Of a stretch of 63,336 bases of DNA, positions 34,199-58,945 are shown one piece after another. Below the pieces are notes generated by a model. It worked only from the letters and a program-made list of their open reading frames with translations. It was not told the origin of the DNA and ran no database searches. Each line of letters begins with the position of its first letter. Within the stretch, counting starts at the first letter, position 1. This DNA comes from Bacteroidota bacterium (lineage in GTDB: Bacteria; Bacteroidota; Bacteroidia; Chitinophagales; Chitinophagaceae), in the NCBI GenBank assembly GCA_016868455.1, contig VGGV01000014.1, positions 1-63,336 of the forward strand, read 5' to 3'. A program made the translations under genes and the position numbers.

Positions 34199-34767
34199 AT
34201 GAAAATTCTGATTTTTCCGGTACTGCTGGTTTGCTTCATGGCTTGTAATTCCACTGATAAGAAAACCCAGAATTCCTCTAATACAGACACAACGAGTCCG
34301 CCGCCGCCCGCAACCAATCCGCCGGGAGTGGAAATGATTCCTGCCGGCCCGGATATTATAAGCCTTGGGGATATAAGACTGGGACTATCCTATAGCGAAT
34401 TAGTTAAACTTATTGGTGAACCAGACAGCAAATCAAAAGCCATCGAATGGGAAGCTGACGGCCTTTTGCATGAGGACCGGACATGGGAAAGCAAAGGGCT
34501 TGTGTTAAATATGGCATCTGAAATAAATGCACCGGCATCACTGGCTGTTTTTTCCATTACGGCAAAAGCCCCTGCACTTTTAAAACAAAAGCCGGTATGG
34601 GCATCGGCAGCAGTTATGCAGAAGTACAGGAAGCTTATAAGAATGATATTAATAAAGAAGAAAGCAGCAAGGATCAACTCACAATTGGCTCCATATATGG
34701 CGGTATCATCTTCACTTTTAAAAATGATAAGGTTGAAACCGTTTTTCTTGGCGCCGCAGCAGAATAG
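34199..34767 (+). pseudogene. Lipoprotein gene with a frameshift
   Basis: The start MKILIFPVLLVCFMACNST has a lipobox (CFMAC) and a Thr/Pro/Ser linker, then ISLGDIRLGLSYSELVKLIGEP, a pattern like the SmpA/OmlA or BLIP-type repeat. After KAPAL the frame-1 sequence turns basic and meaningless, while the next frame continues sensibly as TKAGMGIGSSYAEVQEAYKN to KNDKVETVFLGAAAE and stops at 34765-34767. A single base missing from the CCCC at 34569-34572 explains it. The second half mirrors the first (G-x-S-Y-x-E), suggesting a duplicated domain. Either a real frameshift or a sequencing error. Confidence 0.7.
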
Positions 34768-34774
34768 CCTCACT

Positions 34775-34805
34775 CCCTACCCCCTCTCATTGGGAGAGGG
34801 GCTTA
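34775..34805. repeat. G/C-rich palindrome (CCCCTCTCATTGGGAGAGGGG)
   Basis: CCCCTCTCATTGGGAGAGGGG in two arms (CCCCTCTC and GAGAGGGG), directly after the lipoprotein frame. It resembles the left boundary of the cinA insert (CCCCTCACAAGGAGGGG). Confidence 0.55.
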
Positions 34806-34829
34806 CAACCCTAAAGAAGAAAAACTTTG

Positions 34830-35261
34830 TTATGCCCGGTGATGGTCAGCCCGCCAGTTCTGAACAGCCATCTTGATCTCTTTTTGCGAGAGTTTTTCAT
34901 CCACAGCTCTTTTCGCCAATGCAGGAAATTCTTCATCGCTGGCAAACCGGAGGCCAATGATCTGCCCCATCCGCAGCTGCTTATCCAGCGGCTTGCCTGT
35001 AAGAATATAATGCCGGAAATTTTCTTCTGCACGGATGGCCCTGTCCTGTGCTTTTAAGGCAAAGACCCTTGCATACCAAAGTATCAGTATGATCAGGAAG
35101 AATACAACAACCAATAATGCTGCTGAATAATGGTTTCCTGCATCGTGGTGGTTCAATAAATTAATAATGCTACCTACTACTCCGGCAAATGCCAGTAAAA
35201 AAGCTATTCCATGATATAATGGAATAATCCGGATGTGATTTTTAAAATTCTGTTCTGTCAT
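34830..35261 (-). CDS. DUF6526 family membrane protein
   Basis: 143 residues. Two membrane spans (IIPLYHGIAFLLAFAGVVG and AALLVVVFFLIILILWY) are followed by a soluble basic tail with the conserved ALKAQDRAIRAEENFRHYIL and LRMGQIIGLRFASDEEFPAL segments typical of DUF6526 proteins of Bacteroidota. Function unknown. Its stop lies about 70 bp from the end of the broken lipoprotein (convergent). Confidence 0.8.
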   Translation of the reverse strand: MTEQNFKNHIRIIPLYHGIAFLLAFAGVVGSIINLLNHHDAGNHYSAALLVVVFFLIILILWYARVFALKAQDRAIRAEENFRHYILTGKPLDKQLRMGQIIGLRFASDEEFPALAKRAVDEKLSQKEIKMAVQNWRADHHRA

Positions 35262-36830: not shown

Positions 36831-38591
36831 ATGAGTTTGAATTCTGTATACGCCTCCATCATCACCATCGGCGATGAACTGCTGATCGGCCAGACGATTG
36901 ATACCAATTCGGCTTTTATAGCACGGGAACTGAATAAGATCGGTGTATGGGTGCGGCGCAGGATAGCCGTAGGCGATGTGTACGATGAAATCTGGAATGC
37001 TTTGGATGAGGAAACCTGGGAGTCGGATATTATTATCCTCACCGGCGGTTTGGGCCCGACAGCCGATGATATAACAAAACCTTTGCTATGCAAATATCTT
37101 GGGGGAAAGCTTGTGGTGAATGAAGAGGTACTGGCACATGTAAAATATCTATTTGAAAAAGTGTTTAAAAGACCGGGGCCAATACTTGAAAGCAACCTGA
37201 AACAGGCTGAAGTGCCGGATAACTGTATTGTACTTCATAATAAAAGAGGAACGGCGCCGGGAATGTGGTTCCGCACCCCCACCCCCCGCAGGGAAGCCTC
37301 CCCAAACCCCTCACAAGGAGGGGCTTTAGAACCCGAAAGATTGAAATTTGATTATAGTTTCGTAACGAGTGACCCCATTATTTATAGTTTGCTTAAAGAT
37401 TTTGTTACCGAACACCGAAAAAATCCAACTGAAGCGGAAAAAATTTTATGGGAAATTGTAAGGAGAAGAAAGATGGCAGGATTCAAATTCAGAAGGCAGC
37501 ATATTATCTCAAACTACATAGCAGATTTCGTATGTCTTTCAGAAAAATTAATAATAGAAGTTGACGGTCTGTATCACCAACTACCCGAAAATAAAATTAG
37601 TGATAAAGAAAGAACAAAAGATTTGAACAGGCTGGGATATCAGGTTATCCGCTTTACTAATGAACAAGTATTACATGAGACTGATGAAGTAATCAATACG
37701 ATTGTTGCTCGAGTAAAAGAGAGAAATACTGAACTGCCGGAATCTAAAGTCCCCCCTTGCGGGGGATTTAGGGGGGCTGTATTCATCTCTCTCCCCGGCG
37801 TACCCCATGAAATGAAAGGCCTGTTGATGGAAGAGGTCATACCCAGGCTTCAAAAAGAATTTAAACTGCCCGCTATTGTTCATAAAACCGCTTTTACTGC
37901 AGGCCAGGGCGAATCCATGCTTGCCGAACTGCTGAAAGATTTTGAACCGGGATTGCCCCCACATATTAAACTGGCCTACCTACCCAACTACGGTATGGTG
38001 AAGCTCCGGCTTACGGCAAGAGGTGAGAAAAAAGAAGAAGTTGAAAAAGAAATACAGCCATATTTCAGTAAGCTGCAGGAACTGGTAAAAGAATACCTTG
38101 TCACCAACGAAGATGAAGGACTGGAAACTGTAATTGGAAAAATCCTGAAAGCAAAAAACAAAACCATGGGCACTGCAGAAAGTTGTACAGGTGGTTATAT
38201 TGCCCATCTTATCACAGCTGTAGCAGGTTCATCTGCATATTATAAAGGAAGTGTAATAAGCTATGCAAACGAAGTAAAGGAAAATATATTGGGAGTAAAA
38301 AAGCAAACATTGCAGACTGCGGGCGCTGTAAGCAAAGAAACAGTTACCGAAATGGTGAGCGGAGCCCTTGCCCGGTTGCAATGCGATTATGCCCTTGCTG
38401 TTTCGGGCATCATGGGTCCTGATGGCGGAACGGATGAAAAGCCGGCGGGTACTGTTTGGATCGCTGCAGGAAACAAGGATACTGTGCAAACCCTGAAGCT
38501 CAATCTCCGTTTTGACCGAAAACGAAATATTGAAATGACTGCGGCCAATGCCCTGAATCTTTTCCGCAAGTTTATCTTGTCAGCACCATGA
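36831..38591 (+). CDS. cinA: CinA family nicotinamide mononucleotide deamidase-related protein interrupted in frame by a DUF559 nuclease domain
   Basis: 586 residues, against about 415-420 for the family. Residues 1-147 are the MoCF-like N-domain (ITIGDELLIGQTIDTNSAF, LTGGLGPTADD, GTAPGMWF) and residues 317-586 resume exactly where expected with VFISLPGVPHEMKG, ending in the PncC/CinA_C deamidase domain (GTAESCTGGYIAH, VSGIMGPDGGTDEKPAGTVW). Residues 148-316 are a 169-residue insert (37272-37778) described separately. Removing it gives 417 residues. The insert lies in a beta-hairpin turn between two strands of the MoCF domain, a site likely to tolerate extra sequence. Known CinA proteins hydrolyse NMN or ADP-ribose; whether this one folds is untested. 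Confidence 0.93.
   Translation: MSLNSVYASIITIGDELLIGQTIDTNSAFIARELNKIGVWVRRRIAVGDVYDEIWNALDEETWESDIIILTGGLGPTADDITKPLLCKYLGGKLVVNEEVLAHVKYLFEKVFKRPGPILESNLKQAEVPDNCIVLHNKRGTAPGMWFRTPTPRREASPNPSQGGALEPERLKFDYSFVTSDPIIYSLLKDFVTEHRKNPTEAEKILWEIVRRRKMAGFKFRRQHIISNYIADFVCLSEKLIIEVDGLYHQLPENKISDKERTKDLNRLGYQVIRFTNEQVLHETDEVINTIVARVKERNTELPESKVPPCGGFRGAVFISLPGVPHEMKGLLMEEVIPRLQKEFKLPAIVHKTAFTAGQGESMLAELLKDFEPGLPPHIKLAYLPNYGMVKLRLTARGEKKEEVEKEIQPYFSKLQELVKEYLVTNEDEGLETVIGKILKAKNKTMGTAESCTGGYIAHLITAVAGSSAYYKGSVISYANEVKENILGVKKQTLQTAGAVSKETVTEMVSGALARLQCDYALAVSGIMGPDGGTDEKPAGTVWIAAGNKDTVQTLKLNLRFDRKRNIEMTAANALNLFRKFILSAP
37272..37778 (+). mobile_element. In-frame DUF559/Vsr-like endonuclease insertion in cinA
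   Basis: 507 bp, exactly 169 codons, no stop in the host frame and no ATG of its own near the domain start. The left boundary has CACCCCCCGCAGGG and CCCCTCACAAGGAGGGG; the right boundary is AAAGTCCCCCCTTGCGGGGG plus ATTTAGGGGGG. Between them is a DUF559 domain: NPTEAEKILWEIVRRRKMAG, FKFRRQHIISNYIADF, LIIEVDGLYHQ and the closing GYQVIRFTNEQVL. The residues conserved in the family (TEAE Glu, ADF Asp, EVDG Glu/Asp) are intact. No intein splice motifs are present, so it should stay in the protein as an extra domain. Confidence 0.88.
37746..37776. repeat. Right-boundary palindrome of the cinA insert
   Basis: AAAGTCCCCCCTTGCGGGGG followed by ATTTAGGGGGG. Shares AAAGTCCC ... GGG(G)ATTTAGG with the copy at 35341 and, on the other strand, 57577-57610. 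Confidence 0.8.
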
Positions 38592-56956: not shown

Positions 56957-58930
56957 TTACCATCCAATCCCATAGTCCTCTCCATGATTAGATGAGCCTC
57001 CCCAAAAACTTCCATGCTTCCAGTCAAAGTAAATGGCATTGATGGGGCCGCTGGTGCGGTTGCCGGTAGTTACTTTATAACCCATATTTTTCAGTTCATT
57101 CCTTACTGTTTCCGGTGTGCTGTTGCCCACTAATATTGCACCTGGCCTTGGTTTTCGGTCTTCCATCTTTGTTCCGCCCAATGAAAGCCAAAGCTGATTG
57201 CTATTCACATTAGCTGCTTCACAGGCCTGTTGCACCGTCATACCAAACTCCACCATGTTCAGGAAGAATTGCAGCAGGTTCTGGTCCTGTGTATCGCCGC
57301 CCTGAACGGCAAAGGATAAATAGGGTTTCCCATCTTTCATAGCCAATGTTGGTGTTAATGTCACCCTCGGTCTTTTGCCCGGTTCAATCACATTGTATGG
57401 GTTTAAGGATGCATCCAGCACAAAACTCTGCAGGCGCTGGCTCATACCCACACCGGTATTGCCGGCGATACAGGCAGGCAGCCAGCCGCCGCTGGGAGTA
57501 ATAGACACCACCCAGCCTTCTTTGTCGGCTGCCTCAACAGAGGTAGTACCACGCCACATCCTGTCTATGTATGCGGCCCCCTCTAAATCTCCCCCGTTAG
57601 GGGAGACTTTACCATCCCACAAGCCCCATAGCTCTGCATTTCCTGCAACAACTTCATCAGTTTTAATTTGCGAAGAATACGCTACAGAAGTTGAATCATG
57701 TGCCGGAACAAAATTCCGGTTGCCATCTCCTGATCTGTTCCAGTTCCTCAGCAGTTCGGTATAAGGATTTGTTTTGCCTTCAAAAGGATAAGGATCGCCG
57801 GGAGCAATCAGGGGGTCGTTCTTATCCTGGTTAATTTGCGCTGCTCTCAGTTTTGCATATTCTTTATTCAACAAACCTTTAATGGGTTCCTGCGGAGCGA
57901 AATAAGGATCGCCATAATAAAAATCCCTGTCGGCAAAAGCCAGGTTCATCGTCTGGTAAATGGTATGGATATACTTTGAACTGTTATACCCCATTTTTTT
58001 CAGATCAAAATTCTCCAGTATGTTCAGTGATTGAAGCAGCATCGGGCCTTGTGTCCATTGCTGCAGTTTGTACACATCAATACCTTTATAATTTACAGAA
58101 AGAGGTTCTTCTTCCAGCACTTTCCATTTTGAAAGGTCCTCCATTGTAATTAATCCGCCCTGTTCCCGGCAACCCCTTACAAATTCCGCGGCAATATCCC
58201 CTTTGTAAAATCTGTCGTATGCTGCCATAATAGCTTCCTTTCTGCTTTTCTTTTTCTTCAGCGCTTCCCGTTCGGCTTCCACCATTTTGCTGAGTGAGAC
58301 CAGCAGGTCTTTCTGTACAAAAATTTCTCCGGCTTCCGGGGCTTCTCTTTTTTCACCAAGATGAGGCAGAAAAACTTTGGCGCTATAGGGCCATTGTTTA
58401 ATCCTTTCTTTCCCTCTTTCCATGGCATTGGCGGTTTGTGCCTCAATAGGATAACCGGTTGCCAGTTCTATAGCCGGTTTTAGCACCTGTTCCAGACTCA
58501 TCGTTCCGTAATTCGCTAGCATATAACACAAACCACCCGGAGTGCCTGGAGTAACAGCAGCCAGCGGCCCGTACTCAGGCGGAAAAGCGTAGCCTTTGCT
58601 TTTAAAGAATTCAACCGTAGCGCCAGTGGGGGCAATTCCCAGTGCATTTATCGCAATTACTTTTTTTGTTTTGGGATTATATATGAGTGCCTGCGTCTCC
58701 CCTCCCCAGCTCAGCACATCCCACATAGTGCAGGTGGCCGCCAGCATGGCGCAGGCTGCGTCCACAGCATTGCCACCCTGCTGAAAAATCATGGCGCCTG
58801 CTGTAGCTGCCAGTGGTTTACCTGTAATGGCCATCCAGTTTTTACCGTGCAGGGGTGGTTTTTGTGTTGGCTGTGCATAAACGGTAAATACTGCGATAAG
58901 AAAACTGAAGAGAACTGCAATCTTTCTCAT
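56957..58930 (-). CDS. Gamma-glutamyltransferase family protein
   Basis: 657 residues, signal peptide MRKIAVLFSFLIAVFTVYAQ. The large subunit has GKPLAATAGAMIFQQGGNA and VDAACAMLAATCTMWDVLS; the proposed autocleavage Thr lies in MWRGTTSVEAADKEGWVVS, followed by SITPSGGWLPACIAGN and GKRPRVTLTPTLA. It handles glutathione or other gamma-glutamyl compounds in the periplasm. Between WDGK and AAYIDRMWRG there is an extra VSPNGGDLEG encoded by the repeat at 57577-57610. Confidence 0.88.
   Translation of the reverse strand: MRKIAVLFSFLIAVFTVYAQPTQKPPLHGKNWMAITGKPLAATAGAMIFQQGGNAVDAACAMLAATCTMWDVLSWGGETQALIYNPKTKKVIAINALGIAPTGATVEFFKSKGYAFPPEYGPLAAVTPGTPGGLCYMLANYGTMSLEQVLKPAIELATGYPIEAQTANAMERGKERIKQWPYSAKVFLPHLGEKREAPEAGEIFVQKDLLVSLSKMVEAEREALKKKKSRKEAIMAAYDRFYKGDIAAEFVRGCREQGGLITMEDLSKWKVLEEEPLSVNYKGIDVYKLQQWTQGPMLLQSLNILENFDLKKMGYNSSKYIHTIYQTMNLAFADRDFYYGDPYFAPQEPIKGLLNKEYAKLRAAQINQDKNDPLIAPGDPYPFEGKTNPYTELLRNWNRSGDGNRNFVPAHDSTSVAYSSQIKTDEVVAGNAELWGLWDGKVSPNGGDLEGAAYIDRMWRGTTSVEAADKEGWVVSITPSGGWLPACIAGNTGVGMSQRLQSFVLDASLNPYNVIEPGKRPRVTLTPTLAMKDGKPYLSFAVQGGDTQDQNLLQFFLNMVEFGMTVQQACEAANVNSNQLWLSLGGTKMEDRKPRPGAILVGNSTPETVRNELKNMGYKVTTGNRTSGPINAIYFDWKHGSFWGGSSNHGEDYGIGW
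57577..57610 (-). repeat. In-frame G/C-rich palindromic repeat inside ggt
   Basis: On the minus strand: AAAGTCTCCCCTAACGGGGG then AGATTTAGAGGGGG. Same layout as 35341-35371 and the right boundary of the cinA insert. Adds about ten residues to the protein without a stop. Confidence 0.75.
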
Positions 58931-58945
58931 ACCGGAAATTTATGC

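Follow-up and report, generated by a model that had tools for sequence, protein, structure and literature searches.

A candidate homing element with a DUF559 nuclease and palindromic ends, carried in frame in cinA and other housekeeping genes of Bacteroidota

The cinA gene and its insert

The window, which is the whole stretch of 63,336 nucleotides analysed here (contig VGGV01000014.1, from a member of the Chitinophagaceae), carries a cinA open reading frame that is read without an internal stop into a protein of 586 residues (Table 1). Pfam places MoCF_biosynth (residues 10-127), DUF559 (residues 189-295, E 5e-35), CinA_KH and CinA domains on this protein, and the DUF559 (PF04480) match scores 120.1 bits against a Pfam cut-off of 20.6. 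A sequence-only reading of this DNA had proposed a 507-bp in-frame insert holding a DUF559 nuclease domain; the insert is upheld and the domain in it is complete. The insert was also said to have no stop and no ATG of its own near the domain, which is correct: no in-frame ATG or GTG occurs in the insert on the 5' side of the DUF559 domain, and TTG codons exist there, in frame, at 37341 and 37389. Removal of the insert was expected to restore a normal CinA. The frame is indeed kept, but since filled alleles lack about five loop residues that are present in empty alleles (e.g. WF-KKDGK-VF), the hairpin left after removal of the 507 bp is about five residues short.

Table 1. Features of the cinA element and of a solitary palindrome in the window (positions are those of the window)
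Feature	Position	Strand	Basis
cinA ORF, 586 aa, carrying the element in frame	36831..38591	+	ORF list, Pfam, AlphaFold
Whole in-frame insert, between GTAPGMWF and VFISLPGVPHEM	37272..37778	+	filled/empty comparison
C-rich extra stretch, outside the left terminal palindrome	37275..37293 (about)	+	comparison with L016, L037, L178, L183
Left terminal palindrome (AGCCTCCCC..CTTTAGA), inverted copy of the right one	37295..37330 (about)	+	flank alignment
DUF559 (PF04480) nuclease domain, EDxHD type	37395..37715	+	Pfam, profile search, Foldseek
Putative active-site residues E243, D245, H249, D258 (586-aa protein)	37557..37604	+	alignment A2
Right terminal palindrome (TCTAAAGTCCCCCC..GGGGGGCT), inverted copy of the left one	37743..37778 (about)	+	flank alignment
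Solitary palindrome, in frame in a gamma-glutamyltransferase ORF (about 56960-58939, minus)	57577..57611	-	pattern search, Pfam

The insert ends in G/C-rich palindromes. These had been taken to bound it, and they are inverted copies of each other, but on the left an extra C-rich stretch lies outside the palindrome; this stretch is missing in L016, L037, L178 and L183. The two ends have an inverted similarity score of 37, the 95% level of random pairings being 34. In single-stranded DNA folding, the z values of the window's two palindromes are -1.3 and -0.8 (21 and 41 of 200 shuffles are equally good), and the palindromes of two relatives beat their shuffles (z -2.9 in L037 and -3.8 in L044).

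The AlphaFold model of the 586-residue CinA (mean pLDDT 80.9, 41 sequences), for which the nearest structure is Thermus CinA, puts the insert on low-confidence tethers (residues 151-176 and 299-314) that run from strand 144-148 and to strand 317-321. In this model, the insert is predicted to stay in CinA as a separate domain, held at the hairpin site by disordered tethers.

The nuclease domain

In an alignment of 76 in-frame copies (A2), E32, W36, Q52, D61, E72, D74, H78, D87, R90 and N106 are invariant. Of 98 embedded stretches, 22 are not in this alignment (including the degenerate L070), which is without the degenerate G040 copy; the window stands for L001. E72, D74, H78 and D87 of A2 correspond to the four putative active-site residues of Table 1, in agreement with the earlier statement that the acidic residues of the domain are intact. 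A profile search of the PDB finds 3hrl (E 3.5e-34) and the homing endonuclease I-Bth0305I (3r3p, E 7.8e-6), and the same two structures rank first in Foldseek (3r3p, E 1.1e-4). The element therefore has what is expected of a homing gene in this respect, a nuclease domain of a known family with a conserved active site. One DUF559 gene is assigned to the EDxHD homing family in a passage of PMC9403480.

Nine of 18 pairs of nuclease sequences have dN/dS ratios of 0.05-0.17, several of them with dS above 1, while the other nine are saturated; the nuclease is under purifying selection. PADLOC gives weak matches only, the best (E 1.3e-5) to a type II methyl-directed enzyme, and a role as a defence system was rejected on this basis.

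Occupation of the cinA site

Filled cinA alleles are found at the same hairpin in 11 genomes, the window's included (G000, G012, G040, G086, G091, G530, G532, G542, G560, G561 and G564); G012, whose contig ends inside the insert, shows the right junction only. The position is consistent across the filled alleles, between GTAPGM(W/M)F and F.(S/A)LPGVP, and most relatives examined have a short empty hairpin with a loop such as EKDGK. Within the family, CinA is present in 140 of 147 genomes and the insert is seen in five, among the matches listed; within the genus, cinA is present in 40 of 42 genomes and the insert is seen in seven. In the genus set, G556 has both insert ends with a run of N in between, and G539 has a contig break at the cinA site. 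A search for empty sites in close relatives had been proposed as a check, their absence counting against the proposal, and empty hairpins are the rule. The two other results that were to speak against it, a DUF559-CinA fusion conserved in all relatives with no boundary repeats and an assembly error at 37.27-37.78 kb, are not what is found: the fusion is patchy, its ends are inverted repeats, and the site is filled in other assemblies. Ten other genomes are filled at the same site, so the insert is not an assembly effect; in G542 the filled cinA lies on a contig of 494,760 bases. In occupying a fixed site at which close relatives are empty, the element again behaves as expected of a homing gene.

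Some alleles carry a solitary palindrome without a nuclease, in frame at the cinA site. It is of the right-end type in G554 and G569 and of the left-end type in G074, and G100 has a weaker palindrome. A CinA tree of 75 rows holds 59 empty alleles (G554 is scored as empty by the length rule), 10 filled ones and six with longer hairpins, some of which have no palindrome. The filled state changes at least seven times on this tree, and four of the changes are forced by starred branches. Sister alleles differ in state: G543 is empty and G561 filled, G554 has one palindrome and G530 is filled, and G040 has a degenerate copy, in which the catalytic E reads K, while the hairpin of its sister G130 exceeds the empty one by 12 residues. 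No target duplication is seen at cinA by eye in filled/empty comparisons, which include no near-identical pair.

The host genes of G530, G532 and G554 group together in a single cinA clade (99), and the inserts of G530 and G532 fall in different lineages; a joint clade is rejected (AU p 0.012, for the pair L193 and L182, which was picked after the trees were inspected). A single clade for all cinA inserts is not rejected (AU p 0.38), so descent with many losses and some transfers could also account for them. At the 80th percentile of conservation, the flanks of the cinA site do not stand out, whereas a classical homing target might be unusually conserved. A similar test on ten sites is biased, because the sites were located by conserved motifs, and was set aside. 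As to co-conversion near the cinA site, two filled/empty pairs give 0.206 near the site and 0.109 far from it, the corresponding values for three empty/empty pairs being 0.074 and 0.092. These two pairs suggest co-conversion, but a general signal around the site is not significant (permutation p 0.15).

Terminal palindromes and solitary copies

Inverted ends are not confined to the cinA element. In 143 elements (four of the 147 were left out of the end analysis), the left flank compared with the inverted right flank has a mean score of 33.9, against 19.4 at random. The similarity lies above the 95% null in 66 of the 143 (53 of 119 embedded and 13 of 24 standalone), and the other 77 have no outstanding inverted flank match; none of 135 control flanks, taken 500-700 bp away, lies above this level. 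In 62 of 84 elements the two ends resemble each other more than they resemble the ends of same-site sisters (p 3e-8).

A search of the window's own genome with one palindrome pattern gives seven matches, six of which are palindromic by eye; the pattern reversed is nearly itself, which makes a reversed control void. A high-copy REP family was considered and rejected, given the few copies found with the single pattern tried. In addition to the gamma-glutamyltransferase copy of Table 1, solitary palindromes lie in frame in genes for an alpha/beta hydrolase, a radical SAM protein and an AMP-binding enzyme. In the window itself, a palindrome at about 34774-34815 lies near the C-terminus of a 225-residue ORF (34199-34876) and is read as NSLTPYPLSLGEGL.

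Another copy in this genome is in ileS (L330/L342, C4:33149), in frame and directly before FPADFIAEGVDQ, and a full DUF559 insert occupies the same spot in 12 other Bacteroidota loci. Of 30 ileS loci of the genus, three have the palindrome (G000, G539 and G562), 13 have no palindrome but a natural loop of almost equal length, three have a 23-residue loop and 11 a 14-residue loop. Since the natural loop of 13 loci is nearly as long, the palindrome replaces loop residues in ileS, as in cinA. The 23-residue loops of L347 and L356 (G542 and G541) end in FPFREGWDGA and MPFGKGWEGA, which resemble the right-end peptide LPFGEGWGGA of the filled L259; these two loops are perhaps worn scars.

Two further arrangements were noted. 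L002, in the window's own genome (C11:70477), is a standalone DUF559 gene truncated by a frame break, which lies between genes that by eye are trpF-like and trpB-like and has similar palindromic units on both sides, in the same direction. In L023, L150, L221 and L257, repeated palindrome-coded peptides (e.g. LTPSPSPVERG) are found near the insert.

Other host genes and distribution

A survey of DUF559 in hosts other than stand-alone ORFs, which had been suggested along with the original proposal, finds the subfamily in frame in many other genes across Bacteroidota, including leuS, ileS, metG, valS, metH, recG, aroC, icmF and hsdR. Hosts named by NCBIfam and Pfam are LeuRS, IleRS, MetRS, ValRS, MetH, RecG, fused isobutyryl-CoA mutase, chorismate synthase, adenine deaminase, HsdR, GcpE and an ABC-type ATPase, with one or two examples named for each and the other copies grouped by similarity or motif or named by eye. 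Among 147 distinct DUF559 domains, 122 lie in ORFs of at least 270 residues, in a set of loci chosen mainly for long frames, in which out-of-frame copies are under-sampled; the loci of the family and phylum were taken from among the matches listed. When a collection of 84,980 species was scanned with the in-frame alignment, 67 of 81 domains in the best 80 loci were in ORFs of this length.

A DUF559 match at E 1e-20 or better occurs in 159 of 395 genomes of a phylum sample. Named strains have filled sites as well: Winogradskyella sediminis DSM 28134 and Salegentibacter holothuriorum DSM 23405 in metH, and Flavobacterium difficile in recG. Phage and plasmid carriage was sought in databases: among phage records there are matches in 3 of 50,697 and among plasmid records in 39 of 72,556, all below 60% identity, with Bacteroidota making up none of the 25 plasmid matches listed; a phage or plasmid carrier was rejected on these grounds.

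Some standalone-type DUF559 genes read through in frame into the downstream gene (L039, L043, L052, L062, L058, L060, L067, L225 and L229). N-terminal read-through fusions to an amino-acid kinase and to coproporphyrinogen oxidase were identified by Pfam, and the remaining partners by eye. In L213 and L003, the HsdR with a DUF559 insert also has an in-frame GIY-YIG nuclease domain, assigned by Pfam in the former and by eye in the latter; this may be a second nuclease family of the same habit. L275, on a contig labelled as a Candidatus Nitrotoga MAG, is a metH with a DUF559 insert resembling those of Bacteroidota, and its taxon label is perhaps a binning error.

Histories of inserts and hosts

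A nuclease tree of 147 rows and 112 columns, made by a quick method, clusters by host site: the site labels require 26 changes over 18 groups (minimum 17), where shuffled labels have a mean of 85.4 and none of 200 shuffles is as low. One clade of 38 rows (SH-aLRT 99) consists of in-frame copies throughout, from MetH (four sites), CinA, IcmF, adenine deaminase, MetRS and an M23-like protein, and with none of the 25 standalone genes of the tree. Copies from cinA, ade and metG are neighbours within it, and in the careful tree an adenine deaminase copy adjoins a cinA copy (88/85). Since the tree clusters by site yet neighbours span genes, the lineages stay at one site and occasionally switch gene. 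The proposal of a mobile element adapted to land in reading frames is supported in that the element is in frame in many hosts, but site-specific lineages with an occasional change of gene are closer to homing than to landing in any frame.

Same-site pairs (n=172) were ranked by host similarity, with p values uncorrected for the 172 pairs. At four-fold sites, identity in the recG pair L237/L238 is 0.96 for the insert and 0.69 for the host (p 0.0021, uncorrected), and in the cinA pair L179/L176 it is 0.79 and 0.46 (p 0.0008, uncorrected). In further pairs with similar hosts the insert value is close to chance, e.g. 0.35 in L193/L182 (chance 0.34; host 0.49). Overall, only 70 of the 172 pairs have an insert that is more alike than its host; the 25 pairs that rank highest in host similarity include 10 of this kind. 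The computed histories of insert and host are decoupled, in both directions, which spread between alleles would predict, and inserts need not always be younger.

Two pairs were profiled along the DNA. Their high identity extends beyond the insert, and other stretches of the same regions reach 0.97-0.99. In the recG pair the insert is 97-100% identical and the adjoining gene 91-95%, and stretches 3-7 kb away are also at 0.89-0.99. In metH of G130 and G040, identity is mostly 93-99% over about 6 kb around the insert, falling to 0.72 in places, against a background of 0.64-0.93, and a separate patch 7 kb off reaches 0.97. These tracts are consistent with spread by homologous recombination and do not single out homing.

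Comparison with known systems

Inteins with a homing endonuclease domain also carry an in-frame nuclease inside housekeeping proteins, with a patchy distribution and site-specific lineages, and in these respects the inserts are alike. They differ in that no splicing domain is found in the insert and the nuclease hangs on a hairpin in the CinA model; since no such domain is found, the nuclease should stay in the product. With the EDxHD homing endonucleases, such as the intron-encoded I-Bth0305I, the element shares the catalytic fold, the active-site pattern and the habit of occupying a single site in a conserved gene, other alleles being empty. Unlike them, the insert has no intron, is in frame with the host protein and has inverted palindromic ends. 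I-Bth0305I, as outlined in part of PMC3943268, has a long multi-domain structure and a long target, whereas the inserts consist of the catalytic domain and a short leader.

Rickettsia palindromic elements and intragenic REPs resemble the element in placing palindromic DNA in frame in unrelated protein genes (passages of PMC10969869 and PMC3733652). The Rickettsia elements, compared here by description, are about 150 bp long in these passages, which do not mention a nuclease, while the DUF559 element is a nuclease between two inverted palindromes; the nuclease-free description fits the solitary palindromes but not the full element. The solitary palindromes, unlike the Rickettsia elements, mark some of the same sites as full DUF559 elements. 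Standalone DUF559 genes share the PF04480 domain and often the matching inverted flanks, but the in-frame subfamily starts with Y..TADPxxY and its 38-row clade is free of standalone genes.

Mode of spread and alternative explanations

The element is very likely a mobile in-frame element, and homing is its likely way of spread, judging from sequence comparison. The reading that we favour, and consider probable, is that of a selfish element with a Vsr-like/EDxHD (DUF559) nuclease, with no intron or intein, which is read as part of CinA and may spread by homing. It has computed support in the fold relation, the conserved active site, purifying selection, inverted ends and patchy occupation of a fixed site, as well as in empty and one-palindrome alleles, in-frame relatives in many genes and decoupled insert and host histories. 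In such a life cycle, the nuclease would cleave the empty allele at or near the hairpin, and repair from the filled allele would copy the element in. Rare off-target repair would found new lineages in new genes, and after loss of the nuclease a copy may shrink by deletion to a palindromic scar that keeps the frame. Where the host gene is needed by the cell, the survivors would be solely frame-keeping insertions in tolerant loops.

A different mode of spread, which is unlikely but deserves weight, is transposon-like. Here the terminal palindromes would be the recognition sites of the nuclease or of a partner, much as REPs are for RAYTs, and insertion would occur widely; what is seen would be confined to in-frame copies in tolerant loops, since the others are lost. 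The better match of ends within an element than with the ends of same-site sisters, the solitary palindromes in frame in other genes of the window's own genome and the matching ends on standalone genes all suit this mode, but the same sites are reused across the phylum, nuclease lineages cluster by site, no target duplication is visible and the palindrome copies are few. That the palindromes are REPs moved by Y1 (RAYT-type) transposases, with DUF559 a passenger, is very doubtful. Even though the window's own genome has five Y1_Tnp matches, three of them over the cut-off, the palindrome motif is found in none of eight Y1_Tnp loci of the genus (2.6-3.4 kb each; a strict motif and few loci), which also sets the element apart from REP/RAYT systems. 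The motif lies within 250 bp at 58 of 147 DUF559 loci, against a background of 10 in 223,429 bases, and G532 has a filled cinA and no Y1_Tnp match.

It is also improbable that the insert is a stable domain fusion with a cellular role (e.g. DNA repair or defence), inherited vertically and often lost. Purifying selection on the nuclease and the unrejected monophyly of all cinA inserts agree with such a fusion, but unrelated hosts (tRNA synthetases, MetH, RecG, AroC, CinA and others), patchy distribution, discordant histories, inverted ends and scars do not. Removal from the product, by way of an intein, an intron or ribosomal bypass, has in its favour that the host gene is expected to be useful and that the inverted ends could pair in the mRNA; it is nonetheless highly improbable. 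No splicing (Hint) domain is found in the 586-residue ORF, in which Pfam up to E 0.1 reports DUF559, its relative MTES_1575 and CinA domains, and no ribozyme RNA of a group I or II intron is matched in Rfam up to E 1, which agrees with the sequence-only reading. Since the frame is open throughout and the nuclease is under purifying selection, the insert is most likely translated. An assembly or binning artefact might be suspected where many genomes are drafts or MAGs, but with the same sites filled in independent assemblies and in named strains its probability is close to negligible.

Implications

On balance, the homing reading would make the element a previously undescribed class of selfish element: a palindrome-ended homing nuclease that invades housekeeping genes in frame, is tolerated as an unspliced domain across a phylum, has a visible life cycle (empty, filled, decayed and scar alleles) and jumps recurrently between genes. 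Judged from listings, none of 14 papers that use the term DUF559 gives an account of in-frame DUF559 elements; the literature search covered few subscription papers, so an earlier description may exist.

Association with self-splicing elements is said, in part of a review (PMC3943268), to free homing endonucleases to invade highly conserved genes. Here, a nuclease of a homing family seems to manage without splicing, by keeping the frame and using tolerant loops of tRNA synthetases, MetH and RecG. If so, inserted domains and palindrome-coded peptides would be an extra route of protein evolution, the odd long versions of housekeeping proteins in Bacteroidota would be explained, and the inserts would serve as natural maps of insertion-tolerant loops. 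In-frame palindromes would also be linked to a nuclease as their possible source, and this link is directly testable.
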